In this document: one piece after another, positions 17,940 through 43,287 of the stretch
Position numbering within the stretch: the first letter of the stretch is position 1
How the letters are laid out: every line of letters begins with the position of its first letter
From: a virus
Length of the DNA: 64,000 bases
Virus record (IMG/VR): IMGVR_UViG_3300018080_000179
Span: 1-64,000 of that record
Reading direction: 5' to 3' (one strand)
Translations under genes and position numbers: made by a program
The notes under the pieces: model-generated
What the model saw: only the letters and a program-made list of their open reading frames with translations
Told to the model about the DNA's origin: nothing
Database searches by the model: none

Positions 17940-19388
17940 ATGCCCATACCCGGATTGAAACTGAAATTGACCGAGTCGCAGCTTGACGACCTTTTCAAGA
18001 AGCATGACCTCGCCTACTTTGCAGAAAAAATCCTCAACATGGAAATCGTCGAGCACCATCAGTCGTGGGCCAAGGCGGTATCCGAAAACAACAAGATCAA
18101 CATTCTAAGCTCACGCGATTCGGGCAAGAGCTTCTTCTTTTCATTCGCCTATGTGATCTGGCGGCTTTACTACAACTGGATTCCCCCGCTGCCGTCCGAA
18201 GACTTCAAGTCGCTGCCCAGAAGCTCCCTGGGCTACATCTTCTCCTCGTCGGAGAAGAAGGCTATCGAATTTCTGGACCTTGTGAAGATTGAAATAGAGT
18301 CAAACCCGAAGCTTCGCTTTCTGCTTCCGGCAAAGCGTGATAGCTGGTCGAAAACGGAGATCAGGTGCTCCAACGGTGCGGTTGTGAGGGCCAGGGGCTG
18401 GGGAGCGGCTGTAAGGGGTGGTCACCCGGTATGGATGGTTTGCGACGACGTTCTGTCCGACGAGAACATCTATTCCGAAGTCACCCGGATGAAATCAATA
18501 GACTATTTCTATTCAGCCATAACCCCGATGGTAATCCCCGGCGGCCAGCTAATCGTCGTCGGGACACCCTTCCACGCATCGGACCTTTACGGTGATATCT
18601 GGATCAACCCCGAATACTACTGCTCTAGGCATCCGGCCATAAAGGAGGACGGCAAGGCCCTGTGGCCGACCCGTTATTCGCTGGAGATGTTGAGAAAGAG
18701 GGAGGTGGAGGTTGGCTCCATACGCTTCGCACGGGAATACCTTGTCCAGCCTGTGTCCGAGGGCTCTTCGCTGTTTCCGGAGAGAATCCTGAAGGAGAAC
18801 TACGACACCGAGTTGTCGCTGGTTACCGACATGACCGATTCCATGCACAATGAATACACCGTCTACACCGGGGTCGACCTTGCCCTGTCGGCGGCTGTGG
18901 GTGCGGACTATACCGTGATAATGACGGTTGGCGTCGATCAGTACAAGAATATCCGTATATTGGACATGAGGCGCTTCAAGGGCAGATCCATGACCGAGCA
19001 GCTTCACGAGATAGAGGATGTTTACCACAACTACAGGCCGACCCGGATCTACATCGAGGACAACCAGTTTCAAAAGGTGTTCAGGGACGAGCTTGTGGCC
19101 AACACGGACCTTCCGGTCGAGGGGTACACAACCACCGCCCGCAACAAGAATTCGCTTGAGAAGGGCATTCCCAGCCTCCAGGTGCGGTTTGAGAACCGGA
19201 AGTGGATCATCCCCAGAAAGACCGAAAGGGATAGAAGGCTGATGGATATTCTGATCAACGAGCTAAAGTGCTTCACATGGCAGAATGGAAAGCTGCAGGG
19301 TGTGGGCTCGCATGACGATTGTGTCATGGCACTGTGGATCGCATACGAGGCCTGCCAGTCGTCGGGCTTCAGTTTCAGTTTTGGGTGA
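17940..19388 (+). CDS. terL: Terminase large subunit (packaging ATPase and nuclease)
   Basis: 482 residues. Walker A is SSRDSGKS (57-64), Walker B is WMVCDD (about 165-170), and the coupling motif is GGQLIVVGTPFHASD. The C-terminal RNase H-like nuclease has its acidic residues in YTGVDLALS, IYIEDNQFQ and SHDDCVMAL. Length and order are normal for TerL. It cuts concatemeric DNA and pumps it through the portal encoded at 25454. It starts 12 bp after the hydrolase stop. The small subunit is not adjacent; the 239-aa product at 6377 is one candidate. Confidence 0.97.
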   Translation: MPIPGLKLKLTESQLDDLFKKHDLAYFAEKILNMEIVEHHQSWAKAVSENNKINILSSRDSGKSFFFSFAYVIWRLYYNWIPPLPSEDFKSLPRSSLGYIFSSSEKKAIEFLDLVKIEIESNPKLRFLLPAKRDSWSKTEIRCSNGAVVRARGWGAAVRGGHPVWMVCDDVLSDENIYSEVTRMKSIDYFYSAITPMVIPGGQLIVVGTPFHASDLYGDIWINPEYYCSRHPAIKEDGKALWPTRYSLEMLRKREVEVGSIRFAREYLVQPVSEGSSLFPERILKENYDTELSLVTDMTDSMHNEYTVYTGVDLALSAAVGADYTVIMTVGVDQYKNIRILDMRRFKGRSMTEQLHEIEDVYHNYRPTRIYIEDNQFQKVFRDELVANTDLPVEGYTTTARNKNSLEKGIPSLQVRFENRKWIIPRKTERDRRLMDILINELKCFTWQNGKLQGVGSHDDCVMALWIAYEACQSSGFSFSFG

Positions 19389-20444: not shown

Positions 20445-21314
20445 ATGAAGGACATGCGGGAATTCTCTGAACTCCTTGATGAGACTATAGAGAAGGGTCG
20501 CGCAGCCGAAGAGCGCGACCGGCAAAGGATAAGGGACAGGCGCACCGAGCTTCGGAAGGCGCTGTCCGACCATCCACACCATCCGATAACCGTTGGCCCT
20601 GATTCGGGTTTTTATTCACCCTACCGTCACACCTCCTTTGGCTGGATGCCCCACGACCCGGAACACTGGCGGGAGCAGGGCATTGGAAGCAGGAAGACTT
20701 CATCCTCGGAAGAGTGCCAGTTTGTGCATGACGGCTACCGCGAGGTGCGCCAGTACCTTTCCGGCGTCATGAAGTCGGTAATAGCCGAAACGGTTGAGAA
20801 GGCCAGGAAGGTGGGCACGGTACCGAACGGCACCATCCACGACTACAAGGGCCACAAGTATGAGAAGAAGGGACCGGGCGACTGGCGTCTGGTTCATGAG
20901 GGCAAGGCCTCCGATCACCCGATTGAGCAGCATCACACCGCCAGAAGGCAGAAGGTGCAGGATACCCTGAAGGACCGCAAGAACGGTCTTGCACAGGAGC
21001 CCAGCTTCGATGACCGGGCAAGGGCGGCCAATGAGAAGGCCCGTGAGATCCAGCAGCGTGAGACTGAGGTTCAGGCGCGTGGACTGGAGGCCCGCGAGGC
21101 GGATCTGGAAAGGCGGGAGAATGCGCTTGCACAAACTAAGGAAGATGGTTCAGCGGATGCTCCGGGCAGTGATGTCGGCCCCGAAGAAGGGCGCGAGTCT
21201 GATGCTGGTACCGGCCAGAAAAATGAAGGCGGTGGTTCTAAGCCTGAAGATAAGGTTCTGAAACCCGGCTCCGACGACGGCGGGGATGACAAGAAGCCGA
21301 AGGAGAAGAAATGA
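20445..21314 (+). CDS. Probable internal or head-associated protein with HKY-type motif and coiled coil, 289 aa
   Basis: 289 residues from ATG 20445 (GGGG eight bases upstream). Central segment YKGHKYEKKGPGDWRLVHEG (about residues 128-147) is a version of the basic/aromatic HKY module found again in the three large proteins at 21311, 27434 and 31093. Residues 190-235 form an Arg/Glu-rich coiled coil (ANEKAREIQQRETEVQ). The C terminus is a disordered Gly/Asp/Lys tail. The stop overlaps the start of the 1185-aa gene. I infer a virion-interior or assembly protein from its place beside portal and MuF genes and its shared module; no enzymatic motif seen. Confidence 0.6.
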   Translation: MKDMREFSELLDETIEKGRAAEERDRQRIRDRRTELRKALSDHPHHPITVGPDSGFYSPYRHTSFGWMPHDPEHWREQGIGSRKTSSSEECQFVHDGYREVRQYLSGVMKSVIAETVEKARKVGTVPNGTIHDYKGHKYEKKGPGDWRLVHEGKASDHPIEQHHTARRQKVQDTLKDRKNGLAQEPSFDDRARAANEKAREIQQRETEVQARGLEAREADLERRENALAQTKEDGSADAPGSDVGPEEGRESDAGTGQKNEGGGSKPEDKVLKPGSDDGGDDKKPKEKK

Positions 21315-24300
21315 AGCACGTGATGGATCTGGCCAAGTCGCGGCCCCACAAGTACATCAAGCGGGTCAGGCGTGGGAACAAGTGGGTTTATACCTATCAT
21401 GAAGGTGGCCGCAAGAAATCCTTGTCCGACGAGCATTTCAAAAAGATAAAGAAGCTGGCCGAGATGGGGCATGAGACATCAAAGGCCTTGATGGATGGAA
21501 TCAAGACCGGGACCGCTCCAAGCGGTACCACGAGCAATCCAATTAGAAGCAGGAAGCGGTGGGCTTCCAAACTAAGGCGTGAGGGCTGGTTTGGGGCAGT
21601 TGTTAAAAACAGTGAGGGCAAGCATTTCAGGGTTGTTGCCATAGGCAAGCGGCAGAAGGAAGCGATGTCTCCTGTTCATGAGGTCTTCCACGTTGTAAAG
21701 GATTCGGCGGAAGGCTTCATAGTCCGCCAGCGCAATGAAGACCGAATGTTTCTGGCCCATGACAAGAATTATGAAATAGTCTCCACCGGGATCAAGCTGT
21801 CCAAGAGGCAGCAGGATGACCTGAAGAAGCTGCATGAGGCTGGCTGGATTCGCGGTCTGCCCGAGGCGGATTATAATGGAAAGGGATACTATGGGGACGG
21901 CGCGGATGCGGTTGTAACCATGGATTATGATGCTCCGAAGAATGGCACGCTGTTTCGCATGCGCGATGGCGAGGAAGATGATGACTGGCCTGAGTTTGTA
22001 GGTCGCAGGGACGTCGAAAAAAGAGCAAAGAGATGGCTTCGTGAGAAGGGCTTTGGCAGGAAGGTTGAGGTTTACGCAGAGGACCATGAGAAGGGGATGT
22101 TTTCAATAAACATCGTTATCAAGAAATCGGAGGAGGAAATAATGGGTACCGTTGATGGCGCACTGGACGAGGTGATCAAGGGTCGCGGGCCGGACAGAAA
22201 ACCCCGCAAGAGAAGGTTCAAGATCGGCCATCAGGTGAAGGATAGCGGAACATCCCCCCATGGAGCAAAGGGTGTTGGAGTGGTCGTGGGAACCGGACAG
22301 TTCAGCCATGACGTACATTTCCCGGATGAGAACGAAACCCTTGAGTTCCATGACGGTGAATTGAAGGGTTCGGCCAAGGTGCACGACGATAAGAAGGTTG
22401 GGGATATCCTGAAGCGTCATGCCCAGGTGAGGCCGTCGAAATACAAGTCCGTTGATGGTGCTCTCGACGATTTGATGAAGGCTGGAGGCGAAGGCTCAAG
22501 AGGCGGAGTGGTAATAGGACATTATGAGTCTGGTGCGCCAATGTATCAAAAGGGTTCTGGCGTTCTTGGCGCGACCCGGTCTGGCAAGGAAATAAAGGTT
22601 GGTATGAGCCGTCAGCGGGGGAAGGTGCATAGGGATGGTGGTTCAACAAGTGCCCAGGCAACCGCAGGTTGGACAAAGGAAGACCATCACGACGCTGCTG
22701 CTCATTACTGGAAGAAGCATTTGGAGGCAAAAGATCCTGAAAAAAAACAAAAGTATGCTGTAGATCATAGTCACCATGATGTTCAGGCTATGAATATGGG
22801 TGGTGGCAAGCTTCGTGAGCATTATGATGACGCAGTAAAAAGAATGCGGAGAGGTGAGCATCCGTTTGCTGATGCTGATGAGAAAAGGTTGCTTGGCAAG
22901 TCCGTCGATTCGGCCCTCGATGATCTGATAAAGGCCGGACCAACCGGACCCGGCTCCAGGGGTGGCAAGGTTGTGAGAACCAAGACCGGCAAGATCCGGT
23001 ATGAGAGTCACCAGAAGGTGCTGAATGCGGCTCACGGCATGGAGGGTTCCCACGGAGCTTATAACCATGCTGCACGCGGTGAAGCCAGGGGGACTTCAAA
23101 GGTAACGCCAAACGACAAGAAGCTGATCGACAAGCTCCATGAGCACGGTGTGGAGGATCATCAGAAGGTGGCCTTTTACGATTCCAAGATGGGCCGCCAT
23201 GCGATGGATTCCCTTCACAATGGTCAGGAGCAGCACGTTGACAGCAGCATAAAGCGGTTCAAGAAGGAATATGCCGACCACGACGAGGAGTGGAAGACCA
23301 AGGCAAAGATCAACTGGGACAAGGCTCACGATACAAAGTCCACCGGGCCGGAGAGGGGGATGATGGATGAGAAGCATTATCCCCACCTGATGGACGACTA
23401 TGAGCTTAAGGGCCATCCCAGATTCGACAAGGAGGATTTCAGCAACCTCCGCAACAAGGGATATTCCCATGATGAGATAAGAAACATTTGGGACAAGGAC
23501 CGGGAGCGTGGAGCTTCCAAACCAGGAGGTGCTTCAGTGAAATCTGTAGACGGCGCATTGGATGATTTAATCAAGGGTGGACCTGGGAGTGGCATAAGGA
23601 AGTCCGACGACGAGGGCGGCTTTCATCCTGAAGAGGCGCGAGAGCCCTCAGAGGCCCAGGAAAAGACACCAGAGCAGGAAGCCGAAGACGAGGTCAAGAA
23701 CGAAGAAGCCAGAAGCAAGTCGGTTCTAGGCGACCTTGCAGACGATTTGAGGAAGGGTCGTGGTCCCGACAAGAAACCGAGAAAGAGGCGTGGTGGCATA
23801 TACAAATACAAGGACGCAAAGGTAAAGGTGGTGGAGCAGGCTCGTGGCTTTACCGACCCAAAGCAGCGGGAGCAAATGTGGGTTCGCCTGGTCGGCGGCA
23901 AACATGAGAACTACGAGCATGGTGACGAATTCACAGTTCATCCAAAACATTTGGAAGAGACAAGCAAATCCAATAAGGGGGAAGCAATGTTTAGAACCGA
24001 GATGCCACAGAATCTTATCAAGAGTGTTGGCGAAGACACTACAACAGCCGAAACCATAAAGAAGGGCATACCGGGACAGAGCCGTTCCTCCCGCGACCTT
24101 CTTTACACGCAGGACGATTTCAAAAAGGGTTGCAAGGAGAAAATGTATCCTGAAAAGAAAAAGAAGAAGGAAGAGCCGGAGGCTGAGAAATCCCTGAGTG
24201 AAGAGGTCGTTGACATATTCAAGGACTGTGACGCAGCATACGCGGAAGGCGACCTGCACAAGGCTTACATGGGCTTTGAGAAGCTGGCCGGAAAGCTGGA

Positions 24301-24868
24301 AGGAAAGGTCGAAGACCCGAAGGCGGTCGCGGCAGCGGTAGGCAGAAAGAAGTACGGGGACGCTGCATTTCAGGCGGCAGCTGCATCGGGCAGAAAAATG
24401 GCCTCCGACACGGGCGAGGACAACGATTTACAGAAGGGTGGTCCGGGAAGCGGCAGACATAAGATCGGCCACAAGGTCAAGGTGACTGATTCGCCTCACA
24501 ACAGGAAGCATGGCAACTGTCCGCATGTCGGCAAGCAGGGGACGGTGTCTTCTGTGTCGGGTGACGATGTAACGGTTATGATGGATGGCGGAGAAGGCAA
24601 AAGGGTGGGGATGGGTACGGAGCATTCTACGGTGACTGTAAAGCATGGCGATTTGGCAGGTGTGAGCAAGTCCTTTGGCTCCGAGAATCTGAAAAACACC
24701 CATGGCGAGCAGTTTCATTCGGACGCAGACCGCCAGGTGGTCGAGTATCTCACTACAATCGACAAGGTGAGCATCCACGACGAATCCCACAATCAATCGC
24801 CGAACAAGGTTGATCCAAACAGGCCCCTGCACACGCAGGAGCAGACATTCATGCACTACACCTGGTAG
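21311..24868 (+). CDS. Giant mosaic protein with reiterated amphipathic helices, 1185 aa
   Basis: 1185 residues. It opens MKHVMDLAKSRPHKYIKRVR, a full HKY module followed by a helix pair (LAEMGHETSKALMDG). Five copies of a short helix then separate diverse domains: VDGALDEVIKGRG (281), VDGALDDLMKAGG (381), VDSALDDLIKAGP (532), VDGALDDLIKGGP (746), VLGDLADDLRKGRG (805). The linkers that follow are Gly/Ser/Arg-rich (GPGSG, GRGPDRKPRKRR). At least two segments look like related SH3-type barrels (FKIGHQVK near 303; HKIGHKVK near 1050), each ending in a HDGEL/KHGDL strand. Others are His/Asp-rich helical pieces. Position between terminase and portal suggests an internal, possibly protease-processed cargo protein. 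Function is unknown and the architecture is the main novelty. Confidence 0.75.
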   Translation: MKHVMDLAKSRPHKYIKRVRRGNKWVYTYHEGGRKKSLSDEHFKKIKKLAEMGHETSKALMDGIKTGTAPSGTTSNPIRSRKRWASKLRREGWFGAVVKNSEGKHFRVVAIGKRQKEAMSPVHEVFHVVKDSAEGFIVRQRNEDRMFLAHDKNYEIVSTGIKLSKRQQDDLKKLHEAGWIRGLPEADYNGKGYYGDGADAVVTMDYDAPKNGTLFRMRDGEEDDDWPEFVGRRDVEKRAKRWLREKGFGRKVEVYAEDHEKGMFSINIVIKKSEEEIMGTVDGALDEVIKGRGPDRKPRKRRFKIGHQVKDSGTSPHGAKGVGVVVGTGQFSHDVHFPDENETLEFHDGELKGSAKVHDDKKVGDILKRHAQVRPSKYKSVDGALDDLMKAGGEGSRGGVVIGHYESGAPMYQKGSGVLGATRSGKEIKVGMSRQRGKVHRDGGSTSAQATAGWTKEDHHDAAAHYWKKHLEAKDPEKKQKYAVDHSHHDVQAMNMGGGKLREHYDDAVKRMRRGEHPFADADEKRLLGKSVDSALDDLIKAGPTGPGSRGGKVVRTKTGKIRYESHQKVLNAAHGMEGSHGAYNHAARGEARGTSKVTPNDKKLIDKLHEHGVEDHQKVAFYDSKMGRHAMDSLHNGQEQHVDSSIKRFKKEYADHDEEWKTKAKINWDKAHDTKSTGPERGMMDEKHYPHLMDDYELKGHPRFDKEDFSNLRNKGYSHDEIRNIWDKDRERGASKPGGASVKSVDGALDDLIKGGPGSGIRKSDDEGGFHPEEAREPSEAQEKTPEQEAEDEVKNEEARSKSVLGDLADDLRKGRGPDKKPRKRRGGIYKYKDAKVKVVEQARGFTDPKQREQMWVRLVGGKHENYEHGDEFTVHPKHLEETSKSNKGEAMFRTEMPQNLIKSVGEDTTTAETIKKGIPGQSRSSRDLLYTQDDFKKGCKEKMYPEKKKKKEEPEAEKSLSEEVVDIFKDCDAAYAEGDLHKAYMGFEKLAGKLEGKVEDPKAVAAAVGRKKYGDAAFQAAAASGRKMASDTGEDNDLQKGGPGSGRHKIGHKVKVTDSPHNRKHGNCPHVGKQGTVSSVSGDDVTVMMDGGEGKRVGMGTEHSTVTVKHGDLAGVSKSFGSENLKNTHGEQFHSDADRQVVEYLTTIDKVSIHDESHNQSPNKVDPNRPLHTQEQTFMHYTW

Positions 24869-24876
24869 GAGGTATC

Positions 24877-25452
24877 ATGTCGGACGTGCTTCAGGATCTG
24901 GCCGACCAGATCACCAAGTCCGGGTCGCAGCAGCCGGTAACCCAAAGGCAGCAGCCCAGGCCACAGCCGCAGACGAACCTTGGCACCTTTGTAAAGGCGG
25001 CCGGTCCCGGTGGAGTCATTTTTGATTTCAGCCAGGCGAGAGGCAATCCACTGGCTGACAGGTTTGCGGCCCTTCTGAATTACCATTCGGATCCACAGCA
25101 GGTCCAGATTGCAAAAGACCAGCACGCTGCCTATCAGAAGGCGCTGGGGAACTTTGTGGACCTTGGCGAGTCCAGATTCAATCAGAGCAGTGGCCAGGGC
25201 AGCTTTGAAGGCGTCCACAAGGCGTGGAATCAGCAGCTTTCGGGCTCGACCGATGCAACGATTAAGAAGCTCTATGAAGAGGGCAAGCTCGTCGTCGACG
25301 ATCCAACCTCCATAGAGAAGGGTGGAGCCGGGATGCCCCAGTTTGGAGACGCCAAGATCAATATTGGTAATGAAACGGTTCATGCCACATCTGAAACGGA
25401 CCAGGCCGTTATGGAAATGATGAAGGGTGGCATGCTAGACGAAGAGGAATGA
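24877..25452 (+). CDS. Hypothetical protein, portal-adjacent, 191 aa
   Basis: 191 residues; AGGAGG lies five bases before ATG 24877. The N-terminal MSDVLQDLADQITKSG resembles the reiterated helix of the preceding 1185-aa protein (VLGDLADDLRKG). It is followed by a Gln/Pro-rich linker. The rest is helical and glycine-containing (LADRFAALLNYHSDPQQVQI), ending in an acidic tail. The shared N-terminal helix may be a common sorting or binding tag. It ends one base before the portal gene. Confidence 0.6.
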   Translation: MSDVLQDLADQITKSGSQQPVTQRQQPRPQPQTNLGTFVKAAGPGGVIFDFSQARGNPLADRFAALLNYHSDPQQVQIAKDQHAAYQKALGNFVDLGESRFNQSSGQGSFEGVHKAWNQQLSGSTDATIKKLYEEGKLVVDDPTSIEKGGAGMPQFGDAKINIGNETVHATSETDQAVMEMMKGGMLDEEE

Positions 25453-25453
25453 T

Positions 25454-27214
25454 ATGGGCGCAGTACGGGATTTCCTATCCAAATCTGTAGAGTTCATCGG
25501 CGAGGAGATAGTGCCTATCGCCGGGGACTTGAGAAAGGCTGGGCTTCTGGGTTCCAATGGTACCTATGAGCCCAAGGCTTCACTGATAGATCCGTTCAGT
25601 TACAACCTCACGGTTTTCGGCTACAAGGAGAAGTATTCATTTATTGACTATGCCAAGGCACGGCAGATCAGCTACTCGGACCCGGTCCTTTCGGCAATCA
25701 TCCAGACCAGAACCAACCAGGTGGGCGCGTTTGCGGTACCACAGGACGACCGCTACAAGGTCGGCTTCAAGATATCCCAGCGGGACAAGAAGAAGAAAAT
25801 GAACGGGGCGGCGAAGAAGAAGGCCGAGGAGCTTGCAAAATTCATTATGAACTGCGGCTTCCCGGAGCAGATGGAAGAGACGCCGGACACGAAGAAGCGC
25901 GATAATTTCGAGATGTTTCTCAGGAAGATCACACGCGACTCCCTGACATTCGATCAGGTGAATTTTGAAGTGGTCCCAAGGGCCAATGGAATGCCCGCAC
26001 AGTTCATAGCGGTGGACGCGGGCACCATGAGGATACTTCCGGACAGGCGGGATGTGGCGGCCACCTATGGCGGAATGCATGGAAACAACTACGGGTTCTC
26101 TCCGCAGAATGCGAATGCCCTGATGCCCGCGATGATGCTCCAGCCCCTCAACCCGGATCAGACGAATGTGAACCAGACACGGGTTCCACGGTACACCCAG
26201 CTTATAAACGGCACGCCAAGGGCCACGTTTGACGAATGGGAGATGGCGTTTGGAGTGAGAAACCCGCGAACGGACATTCTGTCCAACGGGTACGGCTTCT
26301 CCGAGATAGAGATGCTTCTCACGGCCATTACCGCACACCTGAATGCCGACACCTACAACCGCAAGTTTTTCTCACAGGGAAGCTCGCAGAAGGGGATTCT
26401 GGCATTTGAAGGAAACGTGCCTCCGGATCAGCTTGAGGCATTCAGACGCCAGTACCATCAGCAGGTCACGGGTGTTCAAAACGCATGGAAGACCCCGATC
26501 ATAGCCACGGGCAACAAGGACACCAAGCTGAACTGGCAGTCCATGCACTCCACGAACAAGGAGATGGAGTGGGGGAAGTACACCGAGTATCTGGTCAAAA
26601 CGATATGCGGCGTCTATCAGATCGACCCCATAGAGATAGGCTTCGACATAGCCCGCAATTCATCGGGGCAGGGCGGCTCCAGCGGCCTGGGCGGAATGGG
26701 TCAGCAGGTCGAGCGTTTGAAGTTTTCGAAGGACAAGGGTCTTGACCCGCTTCTTCGCTTCATCGCTAACATGATAAACGACTACATTATCTGGCGGCTC
26801 GCGCCGGATTTCGAGTTTGAGTTCGTCGGCCTTAACGCATCCAGTGAAAAGGAACAGGTGGAACTGGACAAGGAGAAGGTGGCCACATTCATGACGGTGG
26901 ACGAGCTTCGTGCCGAGCATGACCTTCCTGCCGCAAAGAAGCCCGATGACGTTGAGTCGGTCGGCGACATGATTCTGAGCCCCACATACGTTCAGGCCTT
27001 CCAGGCGCTTGCAATGGGTGGCGGTGAAGAGGAGGGTGGAATGCCCGGAGAAGACGGCGAGCAGGGGCCGGGTGCTCCCATGGGTGAGGAGGACGAGCCT
27101 TCCTATGAGAACATGAGCGACAAGGAGCTTGAGGCCGAACTGGCAAAGCTTCAGGGCACCGCAACCGGCAAGTCGATGGAAGCCAAATTCAAGACACTGG
27201 AGCTTATACTTTAG
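25454..27214 (+). CDS. Portal protein
   Basis: 586 residues. The core matches tailed-phage portals: an early helix with YSDPVLSAIIQTRTNQVGAF, a wing region FLRKITRDSLTFDQVNFEVV, a DAGTMRILPD strand, then the stem/clip region ILSNGYGFSEIEMLLTAI and YNRKFFSQGSSQKGIL. The C-terminal part is acidic and Gly-rich. Twelve copies normally form the ring at one capsid vertex through which DNA is packaged and ejected, and to which neck proteins dock. Typical place downstream of terminase and upstream of MuF and protease genes. The 3' end contains a half-copy of the palindromic motif (GGCACCGCAACCGGCAA at 27155). Confidence 0.93.
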   Translation: MGAVRDFLSKSVEFIGEEIVPIAGDLRKAGLLGSNGTYEPKASLIDPFSYNLTVFGYKEKYSFIDYAKARQISYSDPVLSAIIQTRTNQVGAFAVPQDDRYKVGFKISQRDKKKKMNGAAKKKAEELAKFIMNCGFPEQMEETPDTKKRDNFEMFLRKITRDSLTFDQVNFEVVPRANGMPAQFIAVDAGTMRILPDRRDVAATYGGMHGNNYGFSPQNANALMPAMMLQPLNPDQTNVNQTRVPRYTQLINGTPRATFDEWEMAFGVRNPRTDILSNGYGFSEIEMLLTAITAHLNADTYNRKFFSQGSSQKGILAFEGNVPPDQLEAFRRQYHQQVTGVQNAWKTPIIATGNKDTKLNWQSMHSTNKEMEWGKYTEYLVKTICGVYQIDPIEIGFDIARNSSGQGGSSGLGGMGQQVERLKFSKDKGLDPLLRFIANMINDYIIWRLAPDFEFEFVGLNASSEKEQVELDKEKVATFMTVDELRAEHDLPAAKKPDDVESVGDMILSPTYVQAFQALAMGGGEEEGGMPGEDGEQGPGAPMGEEDEPSYENMSDKELEAELAKLQGTATGKSMEAKFKTLELIL

Positions 27215-27215
27215 A

Positions 27216-27437
27216 ATGGACGTTGTTATCAAATCGACGCAGGAGGAGTTTGAGAGCAAGCGGCCGGAACTGATCCACAAGATCGCCGGAGGCATGTTTG
27301 ACATAAGCCTTGAGAAGTCGATGAAGAAGCGACCGGCCATCCTGAAGATACAGGACGAGATGCTGGACTATTGGGACCGGGAGTTTCAGAAGATGATCCG
27401 GGGACTGAAGAAGGAAATCGAAGAGGTGTTGGGATGA
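27216..27437 (+). CDS. Small helical protein after portal, 73 aa
   Basis: 73 residues from ATG 27216, one base after the portal stop. A GGAG lies 13 bases upstream, so translation may depend on coupling. Mostly helical and charged (IKSTQEEFESKRPELIHK; FQKMIRGLKKEIEEVLG). The stop overlaps the ATG of the Nudix-fusion gene. Function unknown. Confidence 0.65.
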   Translation: MDVVIKSTQEEFESKRPELIHKIAGGMFDISLEKSMKKRPAILKIQDEMLDYWDREFQKMIRGLKKEIEEVLG

Positions 27438-29962
27438 GAGTTGCGGTACCGCAATCGGAGAAGGCAGTCGCCTCAGTGGGTGTGTTCGACGGCGACAAGC
27501 TTCTGATGGGCCGGAGGAGGGATTCCAACAAGTACACGCTCCCCGGCGGACACTTCGAACCAGGTGAATACGCCCTTGAGGCAGGAATCAGGGAGCTTCA
27601 GGAAGAGGCTGGTATAGAGGTTGCCTCGCTTATCCCCCTCGGAATGAAACCCGTCAGGACGCCCGAGGGGGTTCTGGACATTCATGCCTTTGAATATCAC
27701 TGCGACAAGACCCCCACCGTGAAATACGACCCCGACGAGGAAGTGAAGAAGTGGGAGTGGATAGACGTTTCAAACGGACTGCCGGAGGATGTTTTGAACA
27801 ATCTTCATTCCAAAAAGAACGTGGTGCTGCAGCTTCTGGGACTCCAGAAATCCTTTGGGCTCTACATCACCGAGCCGGAATACTTCATAACCGACATTCT
27901 CAAGGCCCGTCCCCACAAGTATATGCGGAAGTACAAGAAGGGCGACAAGTGGATCTATATCTACCATCAGGGTGACGAGCCCGGAAAGCGCCTCACCCCT
28001 GCACAGGTGGAGACCTTCCAGAAGTTGAAGGAAACGGGCCACGAGTCCTCCAAGCGCCTTCTTGACGGGGCTGAAGAGCACAAGGCTGAAAACATAAGGC
28101 GGCTGGCTGAGCTTCATGAGACAGGGCATCCGGCGGCCACCGAATGGCTGAGAAGACATGCCCTTCTCGATATTGTTGAGCAGGGGCAGCTTGAACACGT
28201 AATAGACCCGGAGCGGGCCAACGATCCGTTTCTCAGGGATTTGACCGATGACCAGAAGGCACGGGTGACCCATGAGATCGAGGTGGCCCTTCGGGACAGC
28301 ATATTCGGGTATCTGGACGGCCACCGGTCCACACCCTTCTATACAAACCTTCAGCGGGACGGTGTGAACATCGCCAGCATAATGGAGGAGGTGGAGGTTG
28401 AGGATTCCCTGTCTGATATCATATCCGCGCTGGACGAGGCTTTGAATCAGGTGGATGCAGCCCACCGTGGACTAAGCCCGCAAAACGCCAGAGCCCGTGA
28501 TGCCGGGGGGTATGGAAACCTTGGCTTCAACACGGCCATGAATCGCCTCGTGGGCGCGTCTGCGCTCCCGGAGGAGGCGGAAGCCCTCCTTACCCGAACA
28601 GAGGCCACCAGAGGCCGGATTTCCATCGACACAGCCAAATTAAAGCGGGCCAAGCAGGAGCAGGAGCGCAGGCAGCGGGAGGAGGCTGAAAGGCTCCGCA
28701 GGGAGCATGGCGAGATAGTCGAGAAGCATGGTGAGTCGGCCAGGAAGATGATGTCCTATTACGGGGCCAGCCTGTCGGAGGCGGAGCAGGTAAAGCTGAT
28801 GAAGGGCATCGACAAGTTTTTCGGCAAGGACTTCAAGTTTGATTCAATGGTGGAGGCCTTTCAGGGACACCCCGATGTTGAGATCAGGATAGAGCGGTCC
28901 ATGATGGACGGCCTGATCGGGTATGGGGCCGGAGCCGGACAGAGAAGCATCAGCCTTCGGTTCACCTTCAAGGAGCGGTCCTCCGGGCGGAAGATAACGG
29001 CTGCCACAAGGCACATGAGCAAGTCGTCAAACGGGGCCATAGTGTGGCACAACGAGGTTTTGAACAGGGCCAAAAACAACGACCTTGCCAAATACCCCAA
29101 AATGGCCACAGGGCTTTATGGTGGCGTGGAGCGGTTCCTCAAGCAGGTAACCGCCAACTATTCACCAGCGGCCAAGAAGGACACCCTGATAGAAATAGGC
29201 GGGTGCGCCAACAGCGGCTTTGGAAACGGCTACAAGGGTGCCCTGGTCTGGACCAAGCACTTCTTCGACTTTCCTCCTGCAAATAAAGACCGGTATCTTG
29301 GCAGTTGGAAGGACACCTGGAAGCGAAGCATCGACAAATATGCCAGGGCCCTCGGGACACCGGCATCAGAAGTTGCTGAATTAAAAAGGAAAATAGACTC
29401 GGCAGAATATCCATATCAGTTCACCAAGACCGGTTTTGTTCTTACAAGGGAACAGGCAGAAAAGGTTTTGAGGGCTGATCGCAAAAATCTTGACTTCGAC
29501 TTCAACCAGCTTCTAAAGAAGAGGTCCAAGGGCGGCACCGCCACTCCGTATATTGACATTGGTGAATTGATAATGATTCACAGCAAGACGTCGTGGGGGG
29601 ATGCCAAAAACTACATAAACAGGACCACAGGGCGTGCGGGGCACTTGAACGAACAGCGTACAAAGATGTACAACAGGCAGCAGCAGGTTGCGGCGGAGAA
29701 AAGGTTCCTGACGGGAACGGGAACGTCACGGCCAAGAACCCCCACCGCCACAACAAGAACCTCCACTGGAAACAGGGGAGCGGACGCAATGCGTGCCTGG
29801 GCACCCGGTGGGAGCCGCCGAAGGATAGCCATAACGGAACCCCGGCTGGCTGAAATAAGAACCTGGACTTCAAACGAGATTCGGGATTTTGTACGAAGGG
29901 CTCCGATCACGGATGCCGCACGGGCACGGATCAGGGCGATATTGGGAGGCAGGAATGCTTGA
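27434..29962 (+). CDS. Nudix hydrolase fused to a large virion-type protein, 842 aa
   Basis: 842 residues from ATG 27434, overlapping the previous stop. Residues 8-140 are a Nudix domain with a complete Nudix box: G39-x5-E45-x7-R53-E54-L55-x-E57-E58-x-G60-I61. The box contains all the residues that bind metal and pyrophosphate. Residues 150-215 are a HKY module (ILKARPHKYMRKYKKGDKW) with two related helical repeats (LKETGHESSKRLLDG; LHETGHPAATEWL). The remaining 600 residues include a Glu/Arg coiled coil (near 410) and an unassigned alpha/beta region (IEIGGCANSGFGNGYKGALV). Nudix enzymes hydrolyse nucleoside diphosphates linked to other groups (dNTPs, NADH, ADP-ribose, RNA caps). The fusion to a head-associated protein suggests an enzyme packaged in the virion. 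Confidence 0.82.
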   Translation: MRVAVPQSEKAVASVGVFDGDKLLMGRRRDSNKYTLPGGHFEPGEYALEAGIRELQEEAGIEVASLIPLGMKPVRTPEGVLDIHAFEYHCDKTPTVKYDPDEEVKKWEWIDVSNGLPEDVLNNLHSKKNVVLQLLGLQKSFGLYITEPEYFITDILKARPHKYMRKYKKGDKWIYIYHQGDEPGKRLTPAQVETFQKLKETGHESSKRLLDGAEEHKAENIRRLAELHETGHPAATEWLRRHALLDIVEQGQLEHVIDPERANDPFLRDLTDDQKARVTHEIEVALRDSIFGYLDGHRSTPFYTNLQRDGVNIASIMEEVEVEDSLSDIISALDEALNQVDAAHRGLSPQNARARDAGGYGNLGFNTAMNRLVGASALPEEAEALLTRTEATRGRISIDTAKLKRAKQEQERRQREEAERLRREHGEIVEKHGESARKMMSYYGASLSEAEQVKLMKGIDKFFGKDFKFDSMVEAFQGHPDVEIRIERSMMDGLIGYGAGAGQRSISLRFTFKERSSGRKITAATRHMSKSSNGAIVWHNEVLNRAKNNDLAKYPKMATGLYGGVERFLKQVTANYSPAAKKDTLIEIGGCANSGFGNGYKGALVWTKHFFDFPPANKDRYLGSWKDTWKRSIDKYARALGTPASEVAELKRKIDSAEYPYQFTKTGFVLTREQAEKVLRADRKNLDFDFNQLLKKRSKGGTATPYIDIGELIMIHSKTSWGDAKNYINRTTGRAGHLNEQRTKMYNRQQQVAAEKRFLTGTGTSRPRTPTATTRTSTGNRGADAMRAWAPGGSRRRIAITEPRLAEIRTWTSNEIRDFVRRAPITDAARARIRAILGGRNA
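27440..27455. repeat. 16-bp palindrome, copy 3 (GTTGCGG-TA-CCGCAAT)
   Basis: Inverted repeat with six of seven arm bases paired (the outer G/T differs). It overlaps the first codons of the Nudix-fusion gene (RVAVPQ). Copies 1 and 2 lie at gene ends; this one lies at a gene junction. Confidence 0.8.
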
Positions 29963-33503: not shown

Positions 33504-34316
33504 ATGAACGATTTTTTCATTTCCAAGAGTGATTTTCGTATATGGCTGCCGGATGTGGAATTTGACTTTGAGAAGGCAGACAAGGACGAAGGCCACGACT
33601 CCCGAAAAATCATAGGCACCATGAACACCTCCACCAAGGATCGCCAGGCAGAGAATGTCATGGCAAAGGGGCTCGACTTCAACCCCTTCCTTCAGCATGG
33701 ACACTTCAATGACAATCATGACCAGTCCACATCGGCGGTCGTTGGGTACCCCGAACGGGTATACTATTCGGATCAGATCCAAACCAAAAAGGGTGTGACC
33801 GAGGGCTGGCTTACCGAGGGATGGATCGTCAAGGGGACCAAAAGGGCTGACGGCATCTGGGAACTGGCGAAGGCGCTGGCAAAAACCCCGGATCGCAGGT
33901 TGGGCTTCTCCATCGAGGGCAAGGTTCTCAGAAGGTCCAACAAGGTGATCGAGAAGGCGCTGATCAAAAACGTGGCCATCACCAACTGCCCGGTAAACAC
34001 CGACTGCACCTGGGACGTTTTCAAGAAGAGTTTTTACAGCGAGGAGATGGCCATCAAGTCGCTGTCTGCTGGCTACGCAACATCCCCCGCCACACAATCC
34101 GGCGGCGGAGCCCTTCGGACAGAAGACCTTGACCAGGAAGACGACAAGAAGCCTGGAAGGAAGGGCAAGGGTCTGAAGATCATACTGCGCTCAATGGGTC
34201 TTGACCCTGACAATATTCAAAAGGCCTACGATTGGGTGAAGGAAAGTCGTCCCGACTTCACTGATGAAGCGGCGGCGGAAGTGGTTAGGTGGATCATTTC
34301 AAGCAAAGGAGAATAA
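33504..34316 (+). CDS. Prohead maturation serine protease
   Basis: 270 residues. The protease core (about 33-175) has the catalytic His in FNDNHDQS (H72) and the nucleophile Ser in RLGFSIEGKV (S136), in the order typical of HK97-type prohead proteases. IKNVAITNCPVNTD is the usual following strand. It cleaves scaffold and capsid N termini during maturation, and possibly the nearby mosaic proteins. Residues 187-210 (LSAGYATSPATQSGGGALR) closely resemble residues 32-55 of the capsid protein, a hint of a shared cleavage or binding signal. The C-terminal 60 residues are a separate helical domain (LKIILRSMGLDPDNIQKAYD). Confidence 0.88.
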   Translation: MNDFFISKSDFRIWLPDVEFDFEKADKDEGHDSRKIIGTMNTSTKDRQAENVMAKGLDFNPFLQHGHFNDNHDQSTSAVVGYPERVYYSDQIQTKKGVTEGWLTEGWIVKGTKRADGIWELAKALAKTPDRRLGFSIEGKVLRRSNKVIEKALIKNVAITNCPVNTDCTWDVFKKSFYSEEMAIKSLSAGYATSPATQSGGGALRTEDLDQEDDKKPGRKGKGLKIILRSMGLDPDNIQKAYDWVKESRPDFTDEAAAEVVRWIISSKGE

Positions 34317-34319
34317 GCG

Positions 34320-34547
34320 ATGTCAGAAGCACAGGAAATCGGACGCCTGCCCGCAGAGGAAGTCGGACAGGACCACATCCTTGATGACCCTACAAAGGGT
34401 TTTCAGGCTGTGTTGACGAAACAGGACGAGATCATTGATCTTCTCAAGGCTTTGACTGCCAAGCTGGACGCAGACGGCGGTGTGAGTGACACGGACTTCG
34501 CGTCCCTTCTCACCGACGACCTGAACAAACTTGGCTTTAGTTTATAA
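34320..34547 (+). CDS. Small acidic helical protein, 75 aa
   Basis: 75 residues; AAAGGAG lies eight bases before ATG 34320. Acidic throughout, with a coiled-coil-like middle (LTKQDEIIDLLKALTAKLD) and an acidic end. Location between protease and scaffold candidate suggests an assembly role, for example a scaffold partner, but no motif proves it. Confidence 0.65.
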   Translation: MSEAQEIGRLPAEEVGQDHILDDPTKGFQAVLTKQDEIIDLLKALTAKLDADGGVSDTDFASLLTDDLNKLGFSL

Positions 34548-34560
34548 AGGGAGGTTTCTC

Positions 34561-35367
34561 ATGCAAGTAACAAAGGAAGATGTGACCAACGCCCTTTCCT
34601 CTCTGGGAAACGTCCCTGCAGCAGGTGGCGAAGGCACAGACGTCAGCAAGAGTGGAGATGGTTCGCCAACTTCAACTCCCGGCGTGTCAACCAATGGTGA
34701 CCTCAATTCTGCCAACGGCGCGGCGACTGGTGGCGGAGACGACGGTTCCCTCGGAGCACCCGGATCGGACATGAGCGACAAGGCAGGAAAGGGAAAGGTG
34801 AAGCCAGAGGCCAACAAGTCAACTCCACCCCCGGAATTCCAGCAGGGTCTTCCATCGGAAGTTGAAACCAAGGTCGAGGTTTCCGAATTCCTGAAAAGTC
34901 TTGTCGATCACACGGCTACTCAAATCAACGGTCTGCGTGACTTCGTCGTGAAGTCGGATGCGGCGTTTGAGGCGAGGACAGAGGACATCCTTGACTCCTT
35001 CGCGGGGCTTGAGAAGTCCATGGCCAACATCGGTGTTGTTCTCAAGGCTGTATGCGAGCGCATCGGCATCATAGAGAACCAGCCCCAGATGGCCAAGTCC
35101 CAAACGGCTGAAGGCCAACCGGCTGGCCAGCCTGTCCAGAGAACGTTTGAGGCTCCTCAGGGAGACACAGCCGCTGCTCCGCAGGGTGCTTTCTACAAGA
35201 GTCTTGAAGGAAAGTCTCCGGACGAAGTCAGGAAGTCGATCTCCAATTCAATGATTGAATTGGTCAAGAAGGGCGAACTTGAAGACACCGATGTCATCAA
35301 CTTCGACACATACAACTACGTATCAGCGGAAGCGGACACCAAGCTCCGTGCCATGCTGAACAACTAG
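34561..35367 (+). CDS. Candidate scaffold protein, 268 aa
   Basis: 268 residues from ATG 34561 (AAGGGAGG six bases upstream). N-terminal 110 residues are low-complexity Gly/Ser/Asp/Pro. A central coiled coil follows (VSEFLKSLVDHTATQINGLR, DILDSFAGLEKSMANIG), then a Gln/Ala linker and a C-terminal helical domain (FYKSLEGKSPDEVRKSI). Disordered plus helical composition, and position between protease and capsid gene, are typical of capsid scaffolds. These guide assembly and are then degraded. Direct sequence similarity is not recognisable, so the assignment is contextual. Confidence 0.65.
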   Translation: MQVTKEDVTNALSSLGNVPAAGGEGTDVSKSGDGSPTSTPGVSTNGDLNSANGAATGGGDDGSLGAPGSDMSDKAGKGKVKPEANKSTPPPEFQQGLPSEVETKVEVSEFLKSLVDHTATQINGLRDFVVKSDAAFEARTEDILDSFAGLEKSMANIGVVLKAVCERIGIIENQPQMAKSQTAEGQPAGQPVQRTFEAPQGDTAAAPQGAFYKSLEGKSPDEVRKSISNSMIELVKKGELEDTDVINFDTYNYVSAEADTKLRAMLNN

Positions 35368-35379
35368 GAGGAATGAACC

Positions 35380-36846
35380 ATGTATCCAGTACTGGACACA
35401 AAGCAGTTTGAGAACCATGGGGATGGTTTCGGTTCATCCAATCCCCAGGTTGTCAGCGAACTCAACAAAGCCCTCACAGCGGGCTACGCAAGCGATCCGG
35501 CAAGCCAGTCGGATGGCGGGGCACTTCGTGTTGAGGCCCTCGACGCAACACTCAAAATTGTATCCTTCATGCAGAAGAATATCGTTTTCTACAACGACAT
35601 TCCCAAGTCGAAGGCGTACAACACCGTGGAAGAATACAACATGCTTTCCAAGTATGGTGGACGCGGTGGTTTCTTCATCAACGAAGGCGGCCTTCCCAGA
35701 ACGGACGACAGTTCGTATCAAAGGAAGGTACAGTACGTGAAGTTCATGGGGACAACCCGTGAAATCACGCACCCCATGCTTCTCGTCAAGCCCGCGCACG
35801 GAAACGTGGTCGCGCTTGAAACCAAAAACGGCACCATGTGGATGCTGGAGCGTCTGGAAGACAACCTCTTCCACGGAGATGCTTCGGTCATCAGCCAGTC
35901 GTTCAACGGCCTCCGCAAGCAGGCAATTGACGGCTATTCCGATCCCGACACGGCAGGCGACGGCAAGCCCGACGTCTCGCTTGAGCACATCATCGACCTC
36001 CGCGACAAGCCCCTCACCGAGGGAGTTTTTGCAGAGGCCTCCCGTGTGCTTCTGTCAAACTACATGTTCCCCACTGCCTGTTATCTCAACCATGAGAACC
36101 ACAGGGACTACAACGTGGGATTCTTCTCCAAGGGTCGCTACGGGATACCAGTGGGCAAGGAAATGGAAACAGGGTTCGACAGCCGCAGGGTCAAAACCTC
36201 CGGCGGAACCATCCAGCTTCGCCCGGACGTATTCCTGAGAACCGATCAGGTTGCTCCTGCTGCGGCAGACAACCCCTCGGCACCTACGGCTCCGGCCACG
36301 GTGACCGTCACGGTTCAGGCCAAGTCCACTTCAAGGGGATTCCTCCCGGCTGAATTCGCCACCTACGCCTACGAGGTGACGGCCATTTCCAGAAATGGTG
36401 AATCAGCAGCCACTGCCGGAAACGTCAGTGCGGTTGTTGCAGCCGCTGGGGCCAGTGATGAAGTCAAGCTCGTCATCGCACGCGGTGCGGTTTCAGGCAA
36501 CGACCTCACACAGGGCTACAAGATCTACCGGACACGCATCTCGGACGGTGCGGCTGGTACCAAGTATCTTGTCGCTGAGATTCCAAGCTCGGGCGCTTCG
36601 ACAGACTTCCTCGACGGCAACGAGACTCTTCCGGGTCTTGGAACTGCCTATCTTGGACAGTATGACGAAACGGTCCTTACGCTTCGTGAACTGAGCCCAA
36701 TGCTCAAATTCCCTCTTGCAACCGTGGCTTCAAGCATCCGCTGGATGCAGCTTGTATACAATACGCCCATTGTATTCAGGCCAAGGGGAATTGTGATCAT
36801 CAAGAACATCGGTCGCCTTTCGGTTCCAAATCTGATTGGCCCGTAG
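35380..36846 (+). CDS. Major capsid protein with inserted Ig-like domain
   Basis: 488 residues. Residues 30-60 (NKALTAGYASDPASQSDG, then GALRVEALDATLK) precede a HK97-fold core (FFINEGGLPRTDDSSYQRKV; RLEDNLFHGDASVIS). Near residues 295-420 lies an inserted beta-sandwich resembling Ig-like/fibronectin domains (VTVTVQAKSTSRGF; QGYKIYRTRISDGAAGT). The chain then returns to the capsid fold (SIRWMQLVYNTPIVFRPRG). Surface Ig-like insertions in capsid proteins are known and thought to bind surfaces or stabilise shells. The N-terminal region is probably removed by the protease. Gene order protease, scaffold, capsid supports the call. A hairpin follows the stop. Confidence 0.9.
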   Translation: MYPVLDTKQFENHGDGFGSSNPQVVSELNKALTAGYASDPASQSDGGALRVEALDATLKIVSFMQKNIVFYNDIPKSKAYNTVEEYNMLSKYGGRGGFFINEGGLPRTDDSSYQRKVQYVKFMGTTREITHPMLLVKPAHGNVVALETKNGTMWMLERLEDNLFHGDASVISQSFNGLRKQAIDGYSDPDTAGDGKPDVSLEHIIDLRDKPLTEGVFAEASRVLLSNYMFPTACYLNHENHRDYNVGFFSKGRYGIPVGKEMETGFDSRRVKTSGGTIQLRPDVFLRTDQVAPAAADNPSAPTAPATVTVTVQAKSTSRGFLPAEFATYAYEVTAISRNGESAATAGNVSAVVAAAGASDEVKLVIARGAVSGNDLTQGYKIYRTRISDGAAGTKYLVAEIPSSGASTDFLDGNETLPGLGTAYLGQYDETVLTLRELSPMLKFPLATVASSIRWMQLVYNTPIVFRPRGIVIIKNIGRLSVPNLIGP

Positions 36847-41148: not shown

Positions 41149-43287
41149 ATGTCTATAAAACGCACATTTAATGGTGCGACCGTCAGCAAGCCAGGGGCTT
41201 ACTCGGCGGTCAAGGTCCAGAACCTCACAGGGTACCCGCTTCAGCCAACCGGGACTGTAGGTCTCATAGGTGAGGCGGTCGGCGGGGAGCCAAGGGTTCT
41301 TGACATTCTGGAGGGGCCACAGATTCAGGCCGCAAAGGAAAGGTACAAGAGTGGGACCATCGCTGACGGCCTGGGACTTGTTGCGGAGCCTTCAAAGGAT
41401 CCGAGGGTTCCGAACGGAGCCAGCAAGGTCGTCATCTACAAGCCAAACAACTCCACACGGTCTGCCTATTCGCTCGCCAGCACCATTTCGGGCGATCTGG
41501 TCGACCTGCTTTCGGAGAACTGGGGAGCCGACGAGAACAACCTGAACGTGGTTGTCTCCGAGGGTCAGACCGAAGGCGCAGATGCGAAGCTGCTCGGCAC
41601 CATTGACGGCCCGTTCACGGTCGCCAACGGCCAGACGCTGATCATCGACATTTTTGGAACAACCTATACCTTCACCAACACTCTCGTAGGTTCACAGACC
41701 GCAGCAGCCATGCAGGCGGAACTGGACACCGTGGGAAGATGGGCACCATCCAAGCCGACAATTGCCTCGGTGAATGGGAACAAGGTTGACCTCACCATTG
41801 ACACGGGAGCAATCAGTGGTTCCAAGGAGGACTACGGCTACCTTTCAGTGGACGCCACATCAACCATTGACACCATCCTGGGCATCACCGGGACTGTTCG
41901 CGGCCTCAAGGGATCGAGATTCCTTACGTTTGTCAAGGGAAGCGAAGAAGAGGATGCGCTTCAGGAGCTTGGCGGCCCGGATGTGATGAGCATCAAGTAT
42001 GTTGGTGCAGCCACTTCCTGCAAGTTGAAAATCGAGGACTCCGGTGGAGACAGAAAGCTCACTACGGACTGCCTTGGTGTTGCAGCGGACAACCTTGACA
42101 TTACCCTGGGCGAGACGCTTGACGGCGAGCTTCGACCCAAGATTACCGTCAAGGAGCTTGTGGACGTCATCAACGGAAATGCGAAGTATGAGGCATCGAC
42201 CACGTACTCCAATCCGGATGTGAACGCCATTGATCTTGACTACTACACCGACTTCCAGATTGAAGCGGTTGCTGGAATCCTGAAGCGGGACATTCAGGAT
42301 CTTGTCAACTTCCTTAACACCCAGAGCGATCTGGTTGTTGCCGAAAGGAAGTCCAACGTAATCGGAACGGTTGCGCTGGTTGCAAGCCCTGCCTTCTTCA
42401 CGGGCGGCACGGACGGCACATCAACCAACTCCGACTGGGGCGACGGCTTTGATGCCTTCAGGCTCGAAAGGATCAACACGGTTGTTCCACTGATTTCGGC
42501 TGACAAGGGGTCGTTGTCGGTTGACTCCATCAACGCCCTTTGCACATCCCATGTGATCGCCATGACCTCGACGGCAGGAAGATCTGAAAGGAATGCCTAC
42601 TGTTCGAAGCTGGGGACCAAGGATGAATACAAGGCGGCAGCGCTGTCAATTTCAAGTGGCCTTGTCTCGCTCACGGGACAGGACATTCAGGTCTACAGCT
42701 ACAGCAACGCGCAGCTTCAGTACATGGACCCATGGGCATACGCATGCGTCTGTGCCGGAATGCAGGCCGGTTCTCCGGTCGGTGAGCCGATCACCCACAA
42801 GCTGCTGAATATCAACGGCCTTCGTGTTCGTGATGGATCATGGGATCCAAAGATCGACTACGCGGAGATGATTGATGCGGGCTGTACCTTTGCAGAGCCG
42901 CTTGATCAGGGTGGCTACAGAACCGTTGTGGGCAATACCACTTACGGAAAGGACGCGAGCTTCGTCTGGAACAGGAGTTCCGTTATCGAGGCTGGCTACT
43001 ATGTGGCCTACGACCTTCGGTTCAACCTGGAGGCGGAGTACACGGGAACAAAGGCAAGAACTGCAACGGCGACCAATATCGCCGGTTCCGTAAGGACCAG
43101 AATGGAGGTTTACCTCAACGCTGAGATTATCGTCGGAGACGATCTCAACGCTGGCAAGGGATACAAGAACCTCCGGGTTACATTCTCGTCCGGGACAGCG
43201 GCGATCAATGTGGTTGTTACTCCGGTACAGGGTATCGACTTCATTCTGCCAACCATTTACCTGGCAGACATCCAGCAAAGTGCGTAA
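41149..43287 (+). CDS. Contractile tail sheath protein
   Basis: 712 residues; GGAGG precedes ATG 41149. The N terminus TVSKPGAYSAVKVQ and the following GTVGLIGEAVGGEP are typical sheath motifs. The long middle contains inserted domains. The C-terminal domain includes RDGSWDPKIDYAEMIDAG, YVAYDLRF and the final RTRMEVYLNAEIIVGDD segment. The handshake-forming ends of sheath proteins lie at the N and C termini. The protein encloses the tube and contracts at infection, which establishes a myovirus. It is larger than minimal sheaths (about 390 to 660 residues), fitting extra surface domains. Confidence 0.92.
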   Translation: MSIKRTFNGATVSKPGAYSAVKVQNLTGYPLQPTGTVGLIGEAVGGEPRVLDILEGPQIQAAKERYKSGTIADGLGLVAEPSKDPRVPNGASKVVIYKPNNSTRSAYSLASTISGDLVDLLSENWGADENNLNVVVSEGQTEGADAKLLGTIDGPFTVANGQTLIIDIFGTTYTFTNTLVGSQTAAAMQAELDTVGRWAPSKPTIASVNGNKVDLTIDTGAISGSKEDYGYLSVDATSTIDTILGITGTVRGLKGSRFLTFVKGSEEEDALQELGGPDVMSIKYVGAATSCKLKIEDSGGDRKLTTDCLGVAADNLDITLGETLDGELRPKITVKELVDVINGNAKYEASTTYSNPDVNAIDLDYYTDFQIEAVAGILKRDIQDLVNFLNTQSDLVVAERKSNVIGTVALVASPAFFTGGTDGTSTNSDWGDGFDAFRLERINTVVPLISADKGSLSVDSINALCTSHVIAMTSTAGRSERNAYCSKLGTKDEYKAAALSISSGLVSLTGQDIQVYSYSNAQLQYMDPWAYACVCAGMQAGSPVGEPITHKLLNINGLRVRDGSWDPKIDYAEMIDAGCTFAEPLDQGGYRTVVGNTTYGKDASFVWNRSSVIEAGYYVAYDLRFNLEAEYTGTKARTATATNIAGSVRTRMEVYLNAEIIVGDDLNAGKGYKNLRVTFSSGTAAINVVVTPVQGIDFILPTIYLADIQQSA

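Follow-up and report, generated by a model that had tools for sequence, protein, structure and literature searches.

We analyzed a window of 64,000 nucleotides, taken from a virus record of 65,121 bases, in which a 1185-residue open reading frame (ORF) runs without interruption between the genes for terminase and portal, overlapping the upstream ORF's stop by four bases (ATGA). The portal is 39-41% identical to portals of SPO1-like Bacillus phages, and the prohead protease is 34.5% identical to gp84 of Listeria phage A511. Portal, protease, scaffold, and head protein follow one another in the SPO1 order, with extra genes in the window between portal and protease. Judged by these similarities, the window carries a SPO1-type (Herelleviridae-like) myovirus head cluster, and the neighboring head genes, the portal identity, and the shared gene order place the 1185-residue ORF within its head region (Table 1). 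The NUDIX fusion listed there is likely a second polyprotein of the same cluster.

Table 1. Features of the head cluster in window coordinates; modules and cuts within the long ORF are predictions, and an arrow (here and in the text) marks a cut position.
Feature	Position	Strand	Basis
Terminase	17940-19388		
Polyprotein candidate, 1185 aa	21311..24868	+	Uninterrupted ORF, site enrichment
N-terminal peptide MKHVMDLAK, predicted site K9↓S10	21311..21337	+	Motif match
Module 1, HKYIKR...KWVYTYHEG, residues 10-70	21338..21520	+	Common to window ORF 27371-29962 and 18 relatives' loci
Helix 1, TVDGALDEVIK, predicted cut K290↓G291	22148..22180	+	Motif, helix identity
Module 2, residues 291-379, basic start, then SH3-like candidate	22181..22447	+	Follows site
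Helix 2, SVDGALDDLMK, K379↓S and K390↓A on either side	22448..22480	+	Motif
Module 3, residues 391-530, GEGSRGG-VIGHYESGAPMY module	22481..22900	+	74 viral loci; tblastn 64 loci
Helix 3, SVDSALDDLIK, K530↓S and K541↓A on either side	22901..22933	+	Motif
Module 4, residues 542-744, GPGSRGG start	22934..23542	+	Residues 542-666 58% identical to L046/L127 stretch
Helix 4, SVDGALDDLIK, K744↓S and K755↓G on either side	23543..23575	+	Motif
Peptide KSVDGALDDLIKAGP, predicted cuts K744, K755			
Module 5, residues 756-803, short, acidic, GGPGSG start	23576..23719	+	Sits between two helices
Helix 5, SVLGDLADDLRK (divergent), K803↓S and K815↓G on either side	23720..23755	+	Motif
Module 6, residues 816-904, basic start, SH3-like candidate	23756..24022	+	Follows site
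Module 7, residues 905-1042, contains AYMGF...AAAVGRKKYG, ends NDLQK1042↓G	24023..24436	+	Homologues in 7 loci; site
Module 8, residues 1043-1120, GGPGSGRHKIGHKVKV, SH3/KOW-like candidate	24437..24670	+	Four-strand model
Module 9, residues 1121-1185, K1120↓SFGSENLKNTHGEQFHSDAD	24671..24865	+	Homologues in 13 loci
Next product, starts MSDVLQDLADQITK↓SG	24877..25452	+	Domain is long-ORF C-terminal part in L011, L016, L019, L021
Portal, predicted N-terminal cut K28↓A29 (DLRK↓AG)	25454..27214	+	Pfam PF04860
NUDIX hydrolase fused after TDILK↓A to HKYMRK module	27371..29962	+	
Prohead protease, own C-terminal site AIK↓SLSAGY	33504..34316	+	phrog_1028, E 7e-52
Scaffold candidate, site-rich	34531..35367	+	phrog_15087, E 4e-4 (weak)
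Major head protein, predicted maturation cut ELNK30↓A31	35380..36846	+	phrog_752, E 2e-84
Tail sheath	41149-43287		

Four near-identical 11-residue peptides, at residues 280-290, 380-390, 531-541, and 745-755, recur along the chain, each with 8 to 11 of its 11 residues identical to SVDGALDDLIK, and a divergent fifth copy occupies residues 804-815. When 11-residue windows sharing at least 7/11 identities were grouped, five fell into the largest family in the ORF, compared to one or two in 60 shuffles, and the helical moments of the repeats lie within the top ~1% of shuffles. The five amphipathic helices reported in the first-pass annotation are thus all present where it had placed them, as is the similar helix that it had seen at the start of the next product. 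Codons differ between the copies even at identical residues (for example, 10 identical residues share only 3-5 identical codons), which shows that selection acts on the peptide and that the repeat does not stem from a fresh DNA duplication.

A scan of the ORF against Pfam and PHROG returned zero matches, and hence no known polyvalent effector domain, and whole-ORF searches of IMG/VR and phage records found no full-length homologue. Searches for homologues of Module 2 (residues 291-379) and Module 6 (residues 816-904) found none, and degenerate DNA patterns for the helix matched only the known contig or nothing. AlphaFold drew helices at the repeat positions, in a model of the whole ORF (mean pLDDT only 42.9) too poor to reveal domains; a helical part of Module 4, residues 600-670, reached a pLDDT of ~88. 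For residues 1043-1120 a four-strand model was obtained (pLDDT 54) whose PDB matches include several SH3/KOW/Tudor-like barrels, none of them significant (E >= 0.7). SH3-type barrels, of which at least two had been proposed from the sequence, are a candidate reading of residues 291-379, 816-904, and 1043-1120.

The meaning of the repeat becomes clearer at its C-terminal end, when this is compared with the maturation site of the major head protein. The T4 prohead protease site is of the Glu type. In the SPO1-type lineage, the maturation protease cuts the major head protein after Lys. The mature peptide of A511 Cps annotated in GenBank starts at S24, after DALK23, and the mature chain of the 812-type capsid protein in PDB entries 9row, 9rox, and 9roz has 439 residues, compared to 463 in the precursor (5lii); since this is the precursor minus its first 24 residues, the cut lies at DVVK24↓SFQTGY. 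Aligned with these two cuts, the window head protein reads ELNK30↓ALTAGY, and K↓A or K↓S stands at the aligned place in 29/29 head proteins from contigs that have the GSRGG module (see below), often as [DE]-L/I-x-K↓A. The pattern [DE]-hydrophobic-x-K-[SAG] occurs once each in A511 Cps and in the 812 head protein, and both occurrences are the real cut, while the SPO1 gp6.1 site, ALNK↓A, departs from the motif at P4. Near residue 28 of the portal, all 16 portals listed have [DE]L.K↓AG or DLYK/DLMK↓AG. The window head protein also has a second site-like sequence, NDIPK↓SKAYN, which is kept in relatives; it probably lies inside the folded domain and is presumably protected there.

In the 1185-residue chain the helices end in DEVIK↓G, DDLMK↓A, DDLIK↓A, DDLIK↓G, and DDLRK↓G, the same P4-P1' motif, [DE]-L-x-K↓[A/G], as at the maturation site of the lineage's major head protein. 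Directly before four of the five helices stands K↓S, so that a double cut would give peptides of 11 to 12 residues: K379↓SVDGALDDLMK390↓, K530↓SVDSALDDLIK541↓, K744↓SVDGALDDLIK755↓, and K803↓SVLGDLADDLRK815↓. Modules without a helix in front also start after a site (MDLAK9↓SRPHKY and NDLQK1042↓GGPGSGRHK). Module starts thus follow K9, K290, K390, K541, K755, K815, and K1042, and such a site stands right before every recognizable module of the chain. Gly at P1', found at four of these module starts, is absent from the proven sites.

Site counts separate the head genes from the rest of the window. By a five-residue motif, [DE]-hydrophobic-x-K-[SAG], that was fixed after the helices had been seen but whose core derives from head protein sites, the ORF has 10 sites, compared to 1.38 expected by shuffling (P <= 0.001), a ~7-fold enrichment; with the helices masked, five sites are left, compared to 1.26 expected (P = 0.007). 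The head genes of the window together have 25 sites against 4.5 expected, and its other genes 7 against 6.1. The same enrichment is seen in 14 related long ORFs that lie between the terminase and portal genes (39 against 8.1), in the window scaffold candidate (4 against 0.27), and in the scaffolds of relatives (22 against 3.2). It is missing from terminases (0 against 0.9), from portals beyond residue 40 (3 against 7.0), and from window tail genes (2 against 4.2). Control motifs in head genes with R or E at P1, with a charged P1', or in reversed order were flat, and one with N/Q at P1 was mildly raised (9 against 4.2). No significant exclusion of sites from annotated domains was seen (3/34 inside, compared to 4.6 expected).

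The companion pattern K-S-hydrophobic occurs 8 times in the ORF, compared to 1.62 expected, and the dipeptide KS taken alone is weak (13 against 8.7, P = 0.08), the signal being held by the longer motifs. K-S-hydrophobic is 8-fold enriched in scaffolds (SPO1 scaffold, 9 against 0.68), and the window scaffold candidate has 4 against 0.43. Since it is also mildly raised in terminase (8 against 2.4) and in portal bodies (24 against 10.2), we regard it as the weaker and less specific marker. The density of sites and the K-S-hydrophobic pattern that the chain shares with scaffolds, together with excised peptides that would resemble VKSLDGVLSKH of the SPO1 scaffold, could mean that the chain is part of the assembly core, to be fragmented and discarded as the head matures instead of being delivered. 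We consider this improbable, because the sites lie at module borders and would leave modules of ~50-250 residues and because the enzyme domains that relatives carry in such chains (NUDIX, Zeta, and helicases) make sense only if they are retained.

The same modules and the same site rule are found in other phages, the records being metagenomic fragments. The HKYIRK module, which opens the 1185-residue chain, occurs in relatives in long ORFs downstream of the portal, with at most three copies per chain, and in 19 of its 22 copies, window and relatives together, it is preceded by [DE]-hydrophobic-x-K-[SAG] at a varying spacing. The module GEGSRGG...IGHTxSGKPIY (residues 391-530 of the chain) was found at 74 viral loci. 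Among GSRGG-module copies with enough upstream sequence, 89/94 have K[SAG] within the ten residues upstream, compared to 33-50% in two stretches further upstream, a count that may be mildly biased because the query alignment included the helix, although the patterns used for scanning were confined to its GSRGG and IGHT parts. In these upstream residues D/E is favored at P4 and L at P3, as in the head protein site. The SPO1-type protease was present in 30/40 contigs with the GSRGG module and the SPO1-type head protein in 29/40, the remainder being mostly short fragments, compared to only ~1.2% of records in a phage collection. An independent frame of 1257 residues (L043) contains five GSRGG modules, two of them behind the same helix (EKSLSGILDDLIKGEGEGSRGG and KKSVSVLDDLVKAVTGEGSRGG), whereas L063 encodes its modules as stand-alone ORFs that lack the Lys, in agreement with a site that is needed only in chains. 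Consensus modules matched nothing in 50,697 phage records, and a module profile found no relative in 84,980 prokaryote genomes, so the modules appear confined to uncultivated viruses.

A cultivated phage of the lineage, Chryseobacterium phage MA9V-3, which has the SPO1-type portal and protease, carries an ORF starting MSDDLIK↓AK, and its protease ORF has 8 sites, compared to 0.74 expected. The long ORFs of relatives contain NUDIX, Zeta toxin, SNF2 and strawberry-notch helicase, ddrB-ParB, and LPD1 domains, and their modules differ among phages in order, copy number, and distribution. Such shuffling is what one would expect if the repeats were recombination hinges with no role in the protein. 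This is very unlikely, since the amino acids are conserved despite synonymous codon divergence, conservation falls on the residues of the capsid maturation site, and tail genes lack the signal.

Other features of these loci and of the phage records were seen in passing. One relative's terminase ORF (L008:2919-4784) has an intein-like insertion between DHGK and SHFFSF that starts with CLAPETRILMSNGTCKPI and ends with VHN. Sigma-factor-like ORFs with a zinc-ribbon-like C terminus lie between terminase and long ORF in four relatives (L011:137-841, L017:6206-6883, L019:808-1614, and L022:4905-5696), and DNA methyltransferase-like ORFs lie near the terminase, upstream of the portal, in two (L007:7182-8306 and L022:3110-4276). 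Protease or head protein frames of L117, L121, L122, L133, and L152 contain one in-frame TAA or TAG, which could be recoding, a gene boundary, or a sequence error. In Thermus phage Lalka8 (L038:6517-8687), a CRISPR repeat region and a TnpB-family transposase are annotated beside the major capsid protein gene.

We consider it likely that the 1185-residue ORF encodes a ‘polyvalent protein’, a polyprotein whose cargo modules are packaged in the head and that is cut by the prohead protease. The chain would be made whole and then taken into the prohead, where the protease would cut it at [D/E]-L-x-K↓[A/G/S] and K↓S-hydrophobic sites and free the modules as separate proteins with flexible Gly-rich N termini; before cutting, the helix would hold each module in the scaffold core as a tag. 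The steps of this scheme differ in strength. That the chain is cut is highly probable from the match of its sites to the maturation motif, and the earlier proposal of a polyprotein with helix-marked protease sites is in this respect well supported by sequence comparison, since the helix ends carry that motif and the modules follow the sites. Because K↓S precedes four of the helices and a cut site ends each, these four would be excised as small peptides. That the freed pieces are injected into the host is somewhat favored by the position of the gene and by the polyvalent-protein domains of relatives.

The chances that the helix is a targeting tag, holding modules in the scaffold core, seem about even. 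Conservation that spans the whole helix, and not only the residues next to the cut, points to such a second role, and the similar helices at the N termini of neighboring head genes, such as MKSFDDALNDLIK↓AG in L004, agree with a tag that is removed after use. A position weight matrix for the helix found weak look-alikes in the scaffold C terminus (KS-QIxxALxDLVKKG), a likeness that is only suggestive, with scores of 8.5-9 near the noise level. The same observations would be expected if the helix were only a binding tag for scaffold, capsid, or portal, repeated for avidity in a multivalent internal head or core protein that stays whole, its likeness to the cut site being a shared binding determinant. 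The L004 helix, which lies at the very N terminus (MKSFDDALNDLIKAG), would also fit, as a K↓S cut there would remove only two residues. However, this would leave two things unexplained: that what is retained in HKYIRK modules, at the portal N terminus, and in other phages' GSRGG modules is chiefly DLxK↓[AGS] rather than the helix, and that sites are so dense in scaffolds, which one expects to be cleared. We therefore judge an uncut chain unlikely, though less so than the two alternatives above.

It is conceivable, with chances slightly below even, that uncultivated SPO1-type phages as a group pack their internal cargo in the form of such polyproteins, with one helix per cargo domain serving as both tag and cut site and being excised in the prohead by the capsid-maturation protease, so that modules could be freely added or swapped by gene fusion. 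Polyvalent proteins are widespread. From the rule [D/E]-L-x-K↓[A/G/S], precise cuts can be predicted for the cargo chains of a phage as well as for its capsid protein, portal, and scaffold, which makes the separation of the domains and their entry into the head directly testable. The rule also offers a way to find internal head cargo of uncultivated phages from sequence alone, and the helix peptide, as in MKSVDGALDDLIKAG, is possibly a transferable packaging tag.

The first-pass annotation had held that no described system has this layout, which is true only in part. Multidomain, head-packaged polyvalent proteins, thought to be injected and compared with viral polyproteins, are already described (PMC5512222), as are internal proteins cleaved by prohead proteases; what stands is the capsid-maturation site for each module, since our literature search found no description of a polyvalent chain with such a site before every module. 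As polyvalent proteins do, the window chain joins several dissimilar domains and is encoded among virion genes; like those of phages and conjugative elements in the available text of PMC5512222, it is a long, mosaic, shuffled chain beside portal and terminase. That text assigns release to peptidase domains within the chain, whereas here no peptidase was recognized in the chain and the sites match the capsid-maturation protease of the phage. The effector domains of the class (LPD1, ddrB-ParB, SNF2, strawberry-notch, NUDIX, and Zeta) are seen only in relatives, the window chain having no Pfam domain.

DarA and DarB of phage P1 are packaged in the head, some of these proteins being proteolytically processed and DarB having a capsid localization signal, and the available portions of the two accounts describe no repeated internal tag, unlike the window chain (PMC9024508, PMC5512222). 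In phage SPN3US, the gp245 protease removes N-terminal propeptides from many head proteins, including the portal, at one motif with a preference for serine at P1' (PMC10052503). That motif is AXE↓ and the propeptides are single and N-terminal, in contrast to the chain of modules separated by sites found here. Comparable in proposed role to the window helix is the capsid targeting sequence of T4, a conserved short peptide through which different internal proteins reach the precursor core (PMC3012670). However, T4 uses one tag per protein, whereas in the window the peptide recurs within one chain and ends in K↓[A/G].
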